A DNA stretch of 22,107 nt from NCBI GenBank assembly GCA_005800405.1, contig SYFN01000101.1, forward strand, positions 1-22,107, written 5' to 3'. Within the stretch, counting starts at the first letter, position 1. Every line of letters begins with the position of its first letter. Origin of the DNA: Burkholderiales bacterium. GTDB lineage: Bacteria > Pseudomonadota > Gammaproteobacteria > Burkholderiales > Burkholderiaceae_D. The notes beneath the pieces were generated by a model. That model saw only the letters and a program-made list of their open reading frames with translations. It was not told the DNA's origin and did not search any database. Position numbers and translations under genes: made by a program. Positions 11,414 to 20,452 of this stretch are shown piece by piece.

Positions 11414-12534
11414 ATGCCGACCCGTTTGCTCACCGACACATTCAACCGCTTTTTCGAATCCGAGAAAGCCGGCGGCTTGCTGCTGCTTTTCGCCACCATC
11501 ATCAGCGTGGCACTGACCAATTCTGCGCTGGGTCCGCAGTACCTCGGTGTCTAGCAATCGGAGTTTGCCGGCATGACGCTGGAGCACTGCATCAACGACG
11601 GTCTGATGGCGATCTTTTTCCTGATGATTGGTCTCGAGCTGGAACGCGAGTTATATGTCGGCGAGCTGTCCATCGTGCGTAATCCGATGTAGCCGATTTT
11701 CCTGCGCTGGGCGGCATGCTCGTGCCAGCTTTGCTGCATTACGGATTCAACGCTGGCCTGCCCTCTCAACCCGGTGTGGGCATACCGATGGCGACCGACA
11801 TCGCCCTCGCGCTGCTGGGTGCGCGCATTCCGGCGTCACTAAAAGTGTTTGTAGTGGCCTTTGCAGTGATCGACGATCTGGATGCCATCGTCATGATCGC
11901 CTTGTTCTACACCGATACCGTGGTACTGCATTATTTGGCGGCGAGTCTGGCCGTTTGGGCTTTACTACTCGGTCTGAATCGCGTCTGGCGTATTGATTCA
12001 ATCTCTGTTCACGTAGCAGGTGGTGTGCTGATGTGGGCGTTGATGCTCAAGTCAGGGGTGCATGCCACCGTCGCTGGCGTGATGCTCGCTTTCGCCATCC
12101 TCTTCTGGAAACGAAACGATGCCGAGTACTCGCCTTCCCGCCACCTTGAAAACAGATTGCACAAGCCGGTCGCGTTCGTGGTGCTGCCGATTTTCGCGCT
12201 GGCCAACACCGGTATCGTGATCGGTGCGGGATGGCTGGAGCACCTGAGTGGTCCGAATGGCTTGGGGGTCATCCGTGGATTGGTTTTCGGTAAACCCGCA
12301 GGGGTGGTATTGCTCTCGATCATCGCTGTCATGCTTGGTATCTGCAGCCTCCCGGCCGATCTGCGCTGGCGTCATGTCATCGGTGCAGGCATGCTGGGCG
12401 GAATCGGTTTCACGATGTCGATCTTTATTACCAACCTGGCATTCGCTGATCAACCGGATCTCATCAATGCCTCCAAAATGACCGTGTTCGTCGCTTCGCT
12501 GATGGCGGACATCCTCGGTTTTTTGTGGTTGTGA
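11414..12534 (+). pseudogene. nhaA: Na+/H+ antiporter NhaA, multiply disrupted
   Basis: The full NhaA plan is readable but broken. ATG 11414 starts MPTRLLTDTFNRFFESEKAG. TAG at 11552-11554 interrupts it where NhaA normally has the Trp of a FW-x-x-EFAG-like motif. [19 protein letters not shown] follows, then a second TAG at 11690-11692. After PIF one base is missing between 11701 and 11702 (TTCCTGCG, where TTCGCTGCG would restore FAALGGMLVPALL). MATDIALALLGARIP lacks five residues relative to the family's DIAFALGVLALLG, an apparent 15-nt in-frame deletion. VIDDLDAIVMIALFYT keeps the two transport aspartates but has Asp where Gly is usual. The C-terminus to FLWL is intact. With four independent lesions the gene is almost certainly non-functional. 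Confidence 0.93.
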
Positions 12535-15632: not shown

Positions 15633-17846
15633 ATGACCCCATCTGCCCCTGCCTTCGACATGCCCGAGGGCCCGCTGGAAATCGATGTTCTCCGTGTAAC
15701 CTACCTGCGCGGCCCCAACATGTGGACCTACCGCTCGGTGCTGGAGGCCTGGCTGGACCTCGGCGAGTTGGAAAACTGGCCCAGCAACAAGCAGCCCGGC
15801 TTCATCGACCGGCTTCTGGCTGTGCTACCCCAAGTCGCGGCGCACCACTGCAGCCCCGGCGTCGCCTACGGTTTCGAGCAGCGGCTGCGCGAAGGTACCT
15901 GGATGGGTCACATCCTTGAACACATAATTATCGAATTGCTGGAGTTATCGGGTATGGAAGCCGGATTCGGCCAGACGCGCGAAACCACCCAATCCGGAAC
16001 CTACCGCATGGTCTTCCGCGTACCCGACGAGACGGTCGGCCGCACGGCGCTCGACTCCGGCCTCGCGCTGCTGCACGCTGTGATTAACCGTCAGCCCTTC
16101 GATATCGAGCCCGAGCTGGCCAAGATACGCAAAGTGATTGATGAGCACTACCTGGGCCCGAGCACCGCACATATCGTGGCCAGTGCCAACCAGCGCAAAA
16201 TTCCGCACATTCGCCTCAACAAGGGCAGCCTGGTTCAGCTTGGCTATGGCGCCCTGCAAAAGCGTATCTGGACCGCCGAGACTGACCTCACCAGTGCGAT
16301 CGCCGAGGGTATCGCCGGTAACAAGCACATGACTAAGTCGCTGCTGAAAAGCTGCGGTATCCCCGTACCAGAGGGTGAAGTGGTTCACAGCGCTGACGAA
16401 GCCTGGGAAGCCGCACAAGAGATCGGCGTACCCGTCGTAGTGAAGCCCCGCGACGGTAACCGTGGCCGAGGCGTCATGCTCAATCTGTCCACGCGAGAGG
16501 AAATCGACACTGCCTATGCAGTCGCGTTGGCGGAAGATATCGATGTCATCGTCGAGCGCTACATCATCGGACATGAGCACCGCGTTCTGGTGGTGGGCGG
16601 ACAAGTCGTTGCTGTCGCACGTGGCGAAAGCGCCTGGGTTACCGCGGATGGCCAATCCAGCATCGATCAACTGGTCGATGCACAAATCAATAGCGACCCG
16701 CGTCGTGGCAATGCCGATATTCACCCACTCGAAACGCTCCATCCAAAAACCAACAGCGTGATTCAGGCCAATCTGCAGCGGCAGGGACTCGCGCCCCTTG
16801 ATGTTCCTGAAGCGGGCCGTCGCGTGCTGATTGCTGCCAATGGCAATCATGCGATCGAATGCACCGATCGCATCCATCCCGACGTCGCCTATTTGTGCAC
16901 ACTGGCCGCCCGCGTGGTTGGGCTCGACATCGCGGGCATCGATCTTGTGTGCGCCGATATCAGCCAGCCGCTGGAATCTCAGGGTGGCGCCGTGGTCGAA
17001 GTCAATGCCGGTCCCAGTCTACTCATGCATTTGCGGCCGGCAGAGGGAGTGCCACAGCCCGTCGGTAATGCGATTGTCGGTCACCTCTTCCCCGAGGGTC
17101 AGCGTGGACGCATACCGATTGTGGGTATCTCCGGCAGCGTAGTGACTACCGCCGTGGCCCGCATGGTCGCGTGGCTGATGCAGCTCTCTGGCGCTCAGGT
17201 GGGCCTTGCATGTCGGGATGGCTTGTTCGTGGGTCCAAGGCGCCTCGAGAACGGCAATGCCGCACACTGGGAGTCTGGTCAGCGCCTGCTGATCAATCGC
17301 AATGTTGAAGCTGCCGTATTTGAGCATGACCCGATCACGCTGCTCACTGAGGGACTTGCTTATGACCGTTGCTGGGTCGGCGTAGTCACCGACAGCGAGC
17401 CGGTGGACGGGCTCGATGAACAGTTGATGACCGAGTCCGAGCATCGCTACAAGATTTTGCGCACTCAGGTCGATGTGGTGGTCGAGACCGGTTTTGCCGT
17501 GCTCAATGCCGCCGATGACACTGTTCTGTCCATGAGTGAGCTTTGCGATGGTGAGGTGATTCTGTATGCGATCGATGGTCAGCACCCAGCGCTACTGGCC
17601 CACCGCGAGGCTGGCAAACGCATCGTGTGCATTCGCAAGGGCCAGATCGAATGTGCGTCCGGCAGTACCGTTACACATTGCTTCGACCTGCACGCCAATG
17701 TCAGCCCGGCAACGCGCGCACTGCCAGCCGAGGTTCTACTACCCGCCATCGCAGCCGCTTGGGCGCTCGGTCTGAATGACGCAACCGTACGCACAGGTCT
17801 GGAGACCTTTGCCACCGATGAGACTCAAAAACTGGTGATTGCCTGA
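15633..17846 (+). CDS. cphA': Cyanophycin synthetase paralogue CphA' with degenerate Mur-ligase P-loop
   Basis: A 737-residue homologue of CphA with its three-domain plan. The N-domain (about 1-165) includes YLRGPNMWTYRSV and GHILEHIIIELLELSGMEAG, giving H93, E96, H97 and E101 in an HxxEH-type arrangement. The ATP-grasp G-domain (about 166-490) is intact: GSLVQLGYG, VVVKPRDGNRGRGV and VVEVNAGPSLLMHL. The Mur-ligase-like M-domain is shortened, and its P-loop reads GISGSVVTT (498-506) where CphA has GVNGKTTT; the ATP-binding lysine is absent. It should therefore not ligate arginine through the M-site. Cyanobacterial CphA2, also lacking an active M-site, polymerises beta-Asp-Arg dipeptides, and a similar role is possible here. 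It is followed two bases later by cphA. Confidence 0.9.
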   Translation: MTPSAPAFDMPEGPLEIDVLRVTYLRGPNMWTYRSVLEAWLDLGELENWPSNKQPGFIDRLLAVLPQVAAHHCSPGVAYGFEQRLREGTWMGHILEHIIIELLELSGMEAGFGQTRETTQSGTYRMVFRVPDETVGRTALDSGLALLHAVINRQPFDIEPELAKIRKVIDEHYLGPSTAHIVASANQRKIPHIRLNKGSLVQLGYGALQKRIWTAETDLTSAIAEGIAGNKHMTKSLLKSCGIPVPEGEVVHSADEAWEAAQEIGVPVVVKPRDGNRGRGVMLNLSTREEIDTAYAVALAEDIDVIVERYIIGHEHRVLVVGGQVVAVARGESAWVTADGQSSIDQLVDAQINSDPRRGNADIHPLETLHPKTNSVIQANLQRQGLAPLDVPEAGRRVLIAANGNHAIECTDRIHPDVAYLCTLAARVVGLDIAGIDLVCADISQPLESQGGAVVEVNAGPSLLMHLRPAEGVPQPVGNAIVGHLFPEGQRGRIPIVGISGSVVTTAVARMVAWLMQLSGAQVGLACRDGLFVGPRRLENGNAAHWESGQRLLINRNVEAAVFEHDPITLLTEGLAYDRCWVGVVTDSEPVDGLDEQLMTESEHRYKILRTQVDVVVETGFAVLNAADDTVLSMSELCDGEVILYAIDGQHPALLAHREAGKRIVCIRKGQIECASGSTVTHCFDLHANVSPATRALPAEVLLPAIAAAWALGLNDATVRTGLETFATDETQKLVIA

Positions 17847-17848
17847 GC

Positions 17849-20452
17849 ATGGAAATTCTGCAAACGGGGGCCCTGCGCGGGCCGAATCTATGGAGTCGCT
17901 ACACGGCGCTCGAGATCGAAGTGCGCTGTACGCCAGCCGAGCTCGGTCTCGATCAAATACCGGGTTTTGAAGAAACGCTGCGTAGCCTCTTCCCCGGTGT
18001 CGGTGAACTGCGCGCCCCGGGCTACACGGGTCCGCTGACCCTGGCGCACGTACTGGAAGCGACCCTGCTGGCAATGCAGGCACAGGCAGGCTGCCCGGTC
18101 AGCTTCAGTCTGACCTCCGTGACACCCGTCGCCGGGGTGTTTCAAGTCATCGTGGAGTACAGCGAAGAAGACGTTGGCCGTCTTGCTTTCGACATGTCCC
18201 AACGAATTATCGCGCATGCATTGAAATTGTCGACCGGGCAAATCGGTCCGCAGGCCAGCGCGCCTAATGTGCCGGCGATGCTAGCCGAGCTGCGCGAGCT
18301 CGATGAAAATAATCGCCTCGGACCAAGCACAGGCTCGATTGTCACCGCGGCCGTCGCACGTGGCATACCTTTCAGACGGATGACCAGCGGTTCGCTGGTG
18401 CAGATAGGCTGGGGTCACCGGCAGCGACGCATACAGGCAGCCGAAGTCGATTCCACCAGCGCGGTCGCCGAAGCAATCGCACAAGACAAGAATCTCACCA
18501 AGCACCTGTTGCATGCGGCGGGCGTACCCGTTCCAACCGGCGCGCCTGTAAAGTCCATCGATGAAGCCTGGGAAGTCGCGCTGCGCATTGGCTTGCCCGT
18601 CGTGGTCAAGCCGCAAAATGGCAGCCAGGGCAAAGGCGTGACAGTCAATATTCAAACACGTGAGCAAATCGAGAAAGCCTTCCATGCTGCGACCGGCAAA
18701 AGCCCCGTATTGGTCGAAAAATTTTTTCCCGGTAGCGACTACCGCCTGCTCGTCGTTGGCAACAAGCTCATTGCAGCGGCGCGGCGCGATCCACCGCAGG
18801 TAACGGGAGATGGCGAGAACTCGGTCAGGCAGCTCGTGGATATCGTGAACGCCGACCCGCGTCGCAGTGATGGTCACGCCACCTCTCTGACCAAAATACG
18901 ATTCGATGACATCGCCGTGGCCTGCCTGTCAGCGCAGGATCTGCACCCGGATTCGGTACCCGAAAAAGGTCGACGCGTGATCTTGCGCAATAACGCCAAC
19001 CTGAGTACGGGCGGCACCGCCACCGATGTGACCGATGACGTCCATCCCGAAGTCGCCGCGCGCGCCATCGACGCTGCTGCCATGGTGGGACTGCATGTCT
19101 GTGGTGTCGATATCGTCTGCGAGAGCATTATGCGTTCCCTGGAAGAGCAGAATGGTGGCTTGGTCGAAGTCAATGCTGCTCCTGGATTACGCATGCATCT
19201 CTCGCCCTCTTATGGCAAAGGCCGTAACATCGGTGAAGCCATCATGCAGCTGATGTTCGAGCACGGTGATGACGGCAGGATCCCCGTAGTCGCAGTCACC
19301 GGCGTCAATGGCAAGACCACCACCACCCGGCTGATCACCCACGTGCTCACGGCAAGTGGTTTATGCGTCGGGATGACGAATACCGATGGCGTATTTGTCG
19401 ATGGCCGTCAGACCGACAGCGGTGACTGCAGCGGTCCCAAGAGCGCACGTAATGTGCTCTCGCATCCACATGTGCAGGCCGCTGTACTGGAAACAGCGCG
19501 CGGTGGCGTGCTGCGCGAGGGCCTTGGTTTCGAGAAATGCGCAGTCGCTGTCGTCACCAATGTCGGTGAAGGCGACCATCTCGGCATGAATCATGTGCAC
19601 ACGCCCGAAGATGTCTCTCGCGTAAAGCAAATCATCGTGCAAAACGTCGCACCCAATGGCTACGCAGTACTGAATGCCGCCGATCCCCTGGTAGCGGGTA
19701 TGGCGCCGCACTGTCCCGGCAAGGTCATTTTCTTCGCGCAGAATGGGAATCATCCCGTCCTGGTCACCAACCGGGCGCGCGGTAACCGTGTGGTGTTTGT
19801 CGAAGGTAGCGACATCGTGGTGACGGAGGGTGCCATGCAACACCGCATGTCCATGGCCGACGTACCCATGACGCAGGGCGGACTGCTGGGATTTCAGATC
19901 GAGAACACCCTGGCCGCTGTGGGTGCCTGCTGGGGACTCGACATGGACTGGCAGCACATTGTCAGTGGCATCAACAGCTTCCACAACGACAGCAAGAATG
20001 CACCGGGTCGCTTCAACCTGATGCGCTATCGCGATGCCACGGTAGTGGCCGACTACGGACACAATCCGCATGCCATGCGCGCGCTGGTCGCCGCCTTTGA
20101 CGCGCTGCCTGCACAACAAGGCATGAAACGCACCGTCGTCATTAGCGGCGCCGGTGACCGTCGTGATGAAGACCTGCGCGAACTGACGCGCGTGCTCGGG
20201 GCTGCGTTCGACAATATCGTTCTTTTCGAAGATGCCTGCCAGCGTGGTCGTGCGGATGGTGAAGTCCTCGGTCTTCTGCGTGAAGGCCTGCAAGGTGCCA
20301 TACGCGCCAGCCATGTAGAAGAAATCCGTGGCGAGTTCATCGCGATTGACCGCGGTTTGTCACTGCTGAAACCGGGCGACCAGTGTTTGGTACTGGTCGA
20401 TCAGGTCGAAGACGCCTTGGCACATCTGGCGATGCGGGTGACGGAAAACTAA
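17849..20452 (+). CDS. cphA: Cyanophycin synthetase CphA
   Basis: Cyanophycin synthetase builds multi-L-arginyl-poly-L-aspartate, a nitrogen and carbon reserve, by adding Asp to the backbone (ATP-grasp domain) and Arg to the side chain (Mur-ligase domain). The 867-residue length is normal. The ATP-grasp part has GSLVQIGWGHRQRRIQAAE, VVVKPQNGSQGKGV and LVEVNAAPGLRMHLSPSYG. The M-domain has an intact P-loop, TGVNGKTTTTRL (484-495), and continues with ARGGVLREGLGF, VVTNVGEGDHLG, SKNAPGRFN and DYGHNPHAMRALV. The N-domain is divergent: GPNLW is kept but the region matching the CphA' HxxEH motif reads H67-V-L-E70-A71, with A75 where CphA' has E101. It starts two bases after the cphA' stop, indicating one operon. 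No cyanophycin-degrading genes are present here. Confidence 0.97.
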   Translation: MEILQTGALRGPNLWSRYTALEIEVRCTPAELGLDQIPGFEETLRSLFPGVGELRAPGYTGPLTLAHVLEATLLAMQAQAGCPVSFSLTSVTPVAGVFQVIVEYSEEDVGRLAFDMSQRIIAHALKLSTGQIGPQASAPNVPAMLAELRELDENNRLGPSTGSIVTAAVARGIPFRRMTSGSLVQIGWGHRQRRIQAAEVDSTSAVAEAIAQDKNLTKHLLHAAGVPVPTGAPVKSIDEAWEVALRIGLPVVVKPQNGSQGKGVTVNIQTREQIEKAFHAATGKSPVLVEKFFPGSDYRLLVVGNKLIAAARRDPPQVTGDGENSVRQLVDIVNADPRRSDGHATSLTKIRFDDIAVACLSAQDLHPDSVPEKGRRVILRNNANLSTGGTATDVTDDVHPEVAARAIDAAAMVGLHVCGVDIVCESIMRSLEEQNGGLVEVNAAPGLRMHLSPSYGKGRNIGEAIMQLMFEHGDDGRIPVVAVTGVNGKTTTTRLITHVLTASGLCVGMTNTDGVFVDGRQTDSGDCSGPKSARNVLSHPHVQAAVLETARGGVLREGLGFEKCAVAVVTNVGEGDHLGMNHVHTPEDVSRVKQIIVQNVAPNGYAVLNAADPLVAGMAPHCPGKVIFFAQNGNHPVLVTNRARGNRVVFVEGSDIVVTEGAMQHRMSMADVPMTQGGLLGFQIENTLAAVGACWGLDMDWQHIVSGINSFHNDSKNAPGRFNLMRYRDATVVADYGHNPHAMRALVAAFDALPAQQGMKRTVVISGAGDRRDEDLRELTRVLGAAFDNIVLFEDACQRGRADGEVLGLLREGLQGAIRASHVEEIRGEFIAIDRGLSLLKPGDQCLVLVDQVEDALAHLAMRVTEN

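Follow-up and report, generated by a model that had tools for sequence, protein, structure and literature searches.

Tandem cyanophycin synthetases with reciprocal active-site losses suggest a division of labor between polymer synthesis and primer supply

The DNA analyzed here, referred to as the window, is a stretch of 22,107 nucleotides from a Burkholderiales bacterium; it is a complete contig (SYFN01000101.1) of a genome that is 71% complete (GCA_005800405.1), and its nearest named relatives are metagenome-assembled genomes of Oxalobacteraceae. Two genes for cyanophycin synthetase-like proteins, cphA' (15633..17846, 737 amino acids) and cphA (17849..20452, 867 amino acids), lie in tandem on the plus strand, separated by 2 nucleotides. 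CphA is a full-length synthetase that passes the NCBIfam equivalog model TIGR02068 (923.3 bits, cut-off 850). CphA' stays under that cut-off at 680.7 bits and passes the subfamily model NF010623 (952.9 bits versus 877); its AlphaFold2 model has a mean predicted local distance difference test score of 90. A preliminary description of the locus proposed that the two proteins had lost active-site motifs reciprocally and might share the work of making cyanophycin.

In SuCphA1, a site within the polymerase itself, reported in 2022, cleaves cyanophycin into primers. This N-domain site (N-site) has the signature Cx19HxxEH, with C59, H79, and H83 as metal ligands and E82 as the base; H57, F67, R70, and E87 surround the metal center (PMC9262961). 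The activity named in the preliminary description, a hydrolytic N-domain site trimming product to primers, is described there, and the isolated SuCphA1 N domain added in trans made TmCphA1 primer-independent (PMC9262961). Alignment to the solved CphA1 structures places the site at the HxxEH region, as published. Across its eight positions the residues read HCFRHEHE in both SuCphA1 and CphA', LA--HEAA in CphA, and DV--MARK in TmCphA1. CphA' therefore has 8 of the 8 residues expected of an N-domain endo-cyanophycinase (H71, C73, F81, R84, H93, E96, H97, and E101, at 15843..15935 on the plus strand, corresponding to H57, C59, F67, R70, H79, E82, H83, and E87). The site is not intact in CphA, where C59 and H83 are replaced by alanine and the F67/R70 loop is deleted, leaving a remnant at H67–A75 (18047..18073, plus strand) that lacks the cysteine ligand and the second histidine. 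All residues quoted in the preliminary description were correct, namely H93, E96, H97, E101, and GISGSVVTT in CphA' and H67, E70, A71, A75, and GVNGKTTT in CphA. Its view of an HxxEH metal site kept in CphA' and broken in CphA holds, but the cysteine ligand (C73 in CphA', alanine in CphA) had been missed, and E101, taken for a likely ligand, is the counterpart of SuCphA1 E87, a residue that does not bind the metal itself but forms a hydrogen bond to one of the ligand histidines (PMC9262961).

The other two domains present the opposite picture. CphA has every G-domain aspartate-site and M-domain motif that was scored (R323, N394, S396, R458, the P-loop lysine, ARGG, and DHLG); its P-loop GVNGKTTTT lies at 19301..19327, with the motif read at residue 485, and its intact ligase motifs ETARGG and DHLG lie at 19490..19585, all on the plus strand. 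The M ligase of CphA' is dead. Its degenerate P-loop GISGSVVTT (17124..17150, plus strand, starting at residue 498) has T505 at the lysine position, the arginine of ARGG is proline, H586 is glycine with D585 kept, and the Mlid lobe is missing. Its ATP-grasp G domain has lost the residues that recognize aspartate (16623..17024, plus strand): G331 replaces R323, the ANLSTGG loop that carries S396 is five residues shorter (near N405), and L464 replaces R458. Roles for these residues, including the one that holds the alpha-carboxylate of the incoming aspartate, have been described (PMC9427784). Within the dead M core, R610 and D614 (17460..17474, plus strand) occupy the positions of SuCphA1 S603 and E607, M residues that contact the polymer bound at the N site (PMC9262961). 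A contribution of E215 from CphA' to the G site of CphA in trans was also considered and dropped, as the E215 column had been misplaced by one.

To place the pair in a wider context, about one pair per genus and single-enzyme loci were fetched, loci found with peptide patterns were added, and 312 cph proteins were aligned. Of these, 25 were excluded because they were fragments or differed in form, including a CphA' broken into two open reading frames (ORFs) with an N part too short to score (L060) and a third, odd copy in genome G030 (L210). Some loci in the sample may be of the same species, and loci L003–L081 are biased toward the N-site motif because one of the six search peptide patterns overlaps it; loci L111–L181 were gathered with the PF18921 model instead. 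The full N-site is present in the CphA' of all 72 pair loci made up of the window and 71 loci fetched through that model, about one per genus (L175 and L176 share one). CphA' was defined as a class by its N-site residues, a definition that lost no locus, since each of the 72 holds such a CphA' and the three outside the 69 scorable pairs were excluded by their CphA.

Over all loci, 121 CphA' carry the N-site and 0 carry ARGG. The strict C/H/E/H motif occurs in 0 of the 108 adjacent CphA with M motifs, and none of the 49 enzymes with N and M sites together lies in a locus with a CphA' (the whole genome was searched for 21 of them, the flank only for 28). Intact M motifs are present in 163 enzymes. 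The strict motif is missing from 114 of these, all from genomes or loci with a CphA' (108 adjoin it and 6 lie elsewhere in the genome), and is present in the remaining 49. Six further full-length enzymes, found in pair-bearing genomes of two genera, have an N-site that is broken; three were placed in the tree described below, where a clade-mate of the same genus from a genome with no pair (L190, genome G396) has the site intact. Three rows lack both M motifs and N-site: a divergent lone enzyme (L203), a frameshifted CphA (L171), and a CphA cut by a contig end (L046). The same reciprocal pattern is found in 69 of 69 scorable pairs from about as many genera, and in all 110 two-gene loci cphA' lies 5' of cphA in the same orientation, with a median gap of 22.5 nucleotides from mechanically set ORF starts; two of the 110 deviate in class, L171 through its frameshift and L046, whose CphA lies 3.4 kb away, through the contig end.

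Reciprocal degeneration is thus borne out and extends beyond what had been noted, to the F67/R70 deletion in CphA, the altered G domain of CphA', and 72 of 72 loci. The loss of the P-loop lysine, although true of the window's CphA', is no general rule, because 27 of 121 CphA' retain it; the Mlid lobe is missing in 114 of 121. G331 (117 of 121; window 16623–16625) and L464 (115 of 121; 17022–17024) are near-invariant replacements of the aspartate-binding arginines. PF18921 matched 148 of 399 Burkholderiales genomes, with a best match of E ≤ 3.5e-32 in 147 (G369 is the exception), and TIGR02068, for which at most two candidates were scored per genome, likewise matched 148; among the matches listed, the two sets differ by G046 and G369. 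In a class-wide sample of 377 genomes, the two models gave matches in 25 and 27, 4 of them Burkholderiales. No further PF18921 copy was found in the 71% complete genome of the window. Genome G369 holds a relic pair locus (L218) in which CphA', CphA, and the neighboring transporter gene survive as broken pieces, and no full CphA was matched in it.

Conservation follows the same division. Among the 69 pairs, invariant columns number 25 of 136 in the N domain of CphA' versus 11 of 126 in that of CphA, and 10 of 229 in the M core of CphA' versus 49 of 230 in CphA. The eight N-site residues of CphA' are all invariant (hypergeometric p 4.6e-7 against 25 of 136 columns), and R610 and D614, present in 121 of 121 CphA', make up 2 of its 10 invariant M-core positions. 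Mean identity for CphA' and CphA, respectively, is 0.654 and 0.586 in the N domain, 0.650 and 0.712 in the G domain, and 0.462 and 0.684 in the M core. The ratio of nonsynonymous to synonymous substitution rates (dN/dS) is lower in CphA' than in CphA for the N domain in 11 of the 12 comparisons that could be computed; for the M core it is higher in 11 of 12, with 1 tie. Six of the comparisons draw on the same four genomes, and a thirteenth pair (L013/L014) was not computable.

Because dN/dS is far below 1 in both copies, neither cphA' nor cphA is a pseudogene. Ordinary paralogue decay, in which one copy drifts toward a pseudogene, could produce a lost motif in each copy, and G369 does retain just a broken relic of the locus; given that constraint and a pattern that recurs in every scorable pair, such decay is most improbable. 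A second possibility is that CphA' acts as a non-catalytic partner of CphA, in architecture or regulation, with its N-site a relic. In favor of this, structure prediction still folds the dead M domain and the altered G domain, and purifying selection acts on both. Against it, strict retention of the N-site amid variation elsewhere is not what a relic would show, and this role is very unlikely.

Based on these data, the model we favor is a reciprocal split in which CphA synthesizes cyanophycin and CphA' probably serves as a dedicated metal-dependent endo-cyanophycinase that makes primers in trans. The assignment of CphA' rests on the lost aspartate pocket, the polymer-contact positions kept in a dead M core, and the reciprocal dN/dS; the division of labor is the best supported reading because the two proteins are conserved in a complementary way and constrained reciprocally, and because an N domain has been reported to act in trans. 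The losses and retentions, their generality, the selection on both proteins, and the gene order are visible in the sequences themselves. From them we infer an active, metal-containing CphA', primer supply in trans, a primer-dependent CphA, and any CphA/CphA' hetero-oligomer. An ancestral three-site synthetase would have been duplicated and its copies would have lost function reciprocally. CphA would build the polymer, its G domain adding aspartate and its M domain arginine, and, having no N-site of its own, should need a primer. CphA', with its M ligase dead and its G domain devoid of an aspartate pocket, would build none; its N-site, formed by the N domain and a wall of the dead M core, would clip nascent chains into short primers for CphA to extend, and might also mobilize stored polymer. 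Of the two roles that the preliminary description offered for CphA', primer supply fares better than recycling of beta-Asp-Arg dipeptides. Recycling is less likely because the G domain has lost its aspartate-holding residues, and three CphA' of one gamma-proteobacterial family have lost more G-site residues yet kept the N-site (in one of these three, Pfam detects the N domain only).

Several observations weigh against this model. The ATP-binding core of the G domain is kept in CphA' (of 121, K220 in 120, K261 in 121, D431 in 120, E450 in 119, and N452 in 120), a feature that primer supply by itself would not need and that the model does not explain. Arginine at SuCphA1 position 603 is also frequent in CphA (60 of 69), so D614 alone distinguishes CphA'. 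A histidine that is critical to the G sites of SuCphA1 and TeCphA1, H267 (PMC9262961, PMC9427784), is replaced by glutamine in the CphA of the window and in 112 of the 116 members of its class, though the same replacement occurs in 25 of 47 complete enzymes. The N-site performed somewhat better in cis in engineered SuCphA1 heterodimers (PMC9262961). A lone CphA without an N-site is viable, since TmCphA1 works in this way and no CphA' is described in its organism; L203 may be another. According to a review, no cyanophycin was detected on expression of the cphA-like genes of Ralstonia eutropha H16 (PMC8560796). Finally, the pair counts are not independent events, because a single old split fits both main clades; the counts represent maintenance rather than repeated origin.

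The conserved ATP-grasp core could instead indicate a CphA2-like enzyme, whose G domain would link beta-Asp-Arg dipeptides into short chains with the N-site as an accessory. As described for CphA2, CphA' lacks the M ligase and mostly the Mlid lobe, and the conserved G331 and L464 hint at a re-tooled acceptor site. In view of the N-site, which CphA2 is described as lacking (PMC9262961), this role is unlikely. Two CphA2-like sequences (L211 and L212) were considered as a yardstick for the G domain and not used; L211 scores higher against CphA1 than against CphA2 chains.

The surroundings of the pair bear on its origin. Divergent from cphA' and cphA lie minus-strand genes for a cyanophycin metabolism-associated ATP-binding cassette (ABC) transporter (NF052233; 13171..15474; 1325.6 bits, cut-off 880) and a cyanophycin metabolism-associated DUF1854 protein (NF052234; 12659..13174; 210.2 bits, cut-off 150). 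An ABC homologue above 400 bits accompanies 105 of 109 pair loci. Among single-enzyme loci, 7 of 47 have the same ABC transporter and DUF1854 genes, and all 7 are from Planctomycetes; unsplit Planctomycete loci with adjoining ABC/DUF1854 genes are L050, L051, L053–L056, and L058. A quick tree built from 91 sequences places CphA' on one side of a branch with an SH-like approximate likelihood ratio test (SH-aLRT) support of 98, and the CphA of proteobacterial pairs are set apart at 99; with two solved enzymes added, both branches reach 100. The unsplit Planctomycete enzymes group with both halves and stand beside the same genes, so the split arose within the ABC/DUF1854 locus family, probably once for most pairs.

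Other arrangements were seen in passing. In the Planctomycete locus L048 (3634–8169), the division is a different one, with Mur ligase domains only on one protein and an N domain with an intact aspartate-type G domain on the next; for its possible independence of the pair split, the approximately unbiased test gave p 0.152. The unsplit Planctomycete locus L055 (5887–9156) encodes a 1089-residue synthetase with a C-terminal SET domain (PF00856, E 5e-13). M-domain-only proteins of about 560 residues follow complete gamma-proteobacterial CphA in L196 (6188–7879), L198 (6255–7931), and L199 (1508–3199). In L213 (193–3582) and L204, a CphA-like ORF (1129 residues by mechanical reading, with a weak N domain) is divergent from a second CphA without an N-site and adjoins a cyanophycinase match. 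In the window, an NhaA antiporter ORF (11716–12534) begins about 100 residues into the family model and may be truncated or frameshifted.

The distribution of cyanophycinases raises a further question. A CphB-type enzyme, taken as a TIGR02069 match above 230 bits (a cut set in this analysis; the next match below scored 172), occurs in 10 of 10 Burkholderiales genomes with a single PF18921 enzyme (G028, which is 80% complete, eight others, and G396) versus 1 of the 50 genomes that have the pair only (none of 28, and G356 among a further 22). The contrast (Fisher p 1.5e-10, with relatedness ignored) is weaker than its numbers, because the ten represent 4 genera, with six in a single genus, and the 50 include incomplete genomes. 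CphE-like proteins exceed the family cut-off in 4 of the 50, and no cyanophycinase was matched in 21 genomes of the window's genus. A published survey recognized a cyanophycinase in 2.8% of 903 beta-proteobacterial genomes with cphA1, called this unanticipated, and suggested isozymes of unknown kind (PMC10206079). The CphB contrast suggests that CphA' may be the missing cyanophycinase of beta-proteobacteria; tentatively, a synthetase with its ligase sites disarmed, left with its concealed primer-making peptidase as its main function, could both start chains and release stored nitrogen, the classical gene being mostly dispensed with. CphA' might even be chiefly a mobilizing enzyme, an ex-synthetase that degrades stored polymer where CphB is absent, with primer supply secondary or lacking. 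The N-site is indeed the sole site never found lost among the CphA' examined. However, the SuCphA1 N-site is slow, endo-acting, and yields mainly 4-mers (PMC9262961), no isoaspartyl dipeptidase exceeded the curated cut-off in the 13 searched genomes of the window's genus, and another cyanophycinase of unknown type could exist; a chiefly mobilizing role seems doubtful.

The tandem arrangement, which the preliminary description rightly took as known, is in print together with the ABC neighbor, as is the SuCphA1 N-site. What is new here, from comparison of the proteins, is the loss of the aspartate pocket in CphA', the polymer-contact positions kept in its dead M core, and the reciprocal constraint. 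No description of reciprocal loss in CphA/CphA' was found in the listed matches, abstracts, and passages of an open-access library, subscription papers being outside the scope. With polymerase and primer-maker separated into two genes, cells could tune each apart, and the primer model becomes testable with natural parts. Pair-type CphA expressed alone is predicted to be limited by primer, a point relevant to cases in which heterologous production of cyanophycin has failed or been weak. CphA' is also a candidate solution to the published puzzle that most cphA-bearing beta-proteobacteria lack a recognizable cyanophycinase, and the split enzyme a candidate explanation of the observations in PMC10206079 and PMC10687191.

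Among known systems, SuCphA1 and TeCphA1 have the same N-G-M architecture and share the N-site with CphA' and the G and M motifs with CphA; they differ in carrying all three sites on one polypeptide, whereas here the sites lie on two, with losses in each. The primer-dependent TmCphA1 (PDB 7lgn) resembles CphA in lacking C59, H83, and the F67/R70 loop, but has also lost H79 and E82 and is described as a single enzyme. It was considered as the orphaned half of a pair and rejected as such: the quick tree places it among the complete enzymes of gamma-proteobacteria, and its N-site loss is therefore independent. CphA2, like CphA', has no M ligase and no Mlid, but polymerizes dipeptides without an N-site motif (PMC9262961), whereas CphA' has the N-site and has lost the aspartate-recognition residues; published descriptions, rather than a residue alignment, set the two apart.

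Tandem cphA genes are likewise found in Ralstonia eutropha H16 (CphA/CphA') and in the Group 1 clusters, with two copies, known from Accumulibacter and other bacteria. The CphA' of Ralstonia eutropha H16 reportedly lacks part of the J-loop, a statement attributed to Adames et al. in 2013. Group 1 clusters also have an ABC transporter and lack cphB, and in Accumulibacter both cphA copies are evenly expressed (PMC10687191); N-site loss or retention is no part of the available text of the published descriptions of either system. The closest counterparts are the unsplit Planctomycete enzymes, which share the ABC/DUF1854 neighborhood and the clade of both halves, and differ in that the N, G, and M sites are all intact on one enzyme.
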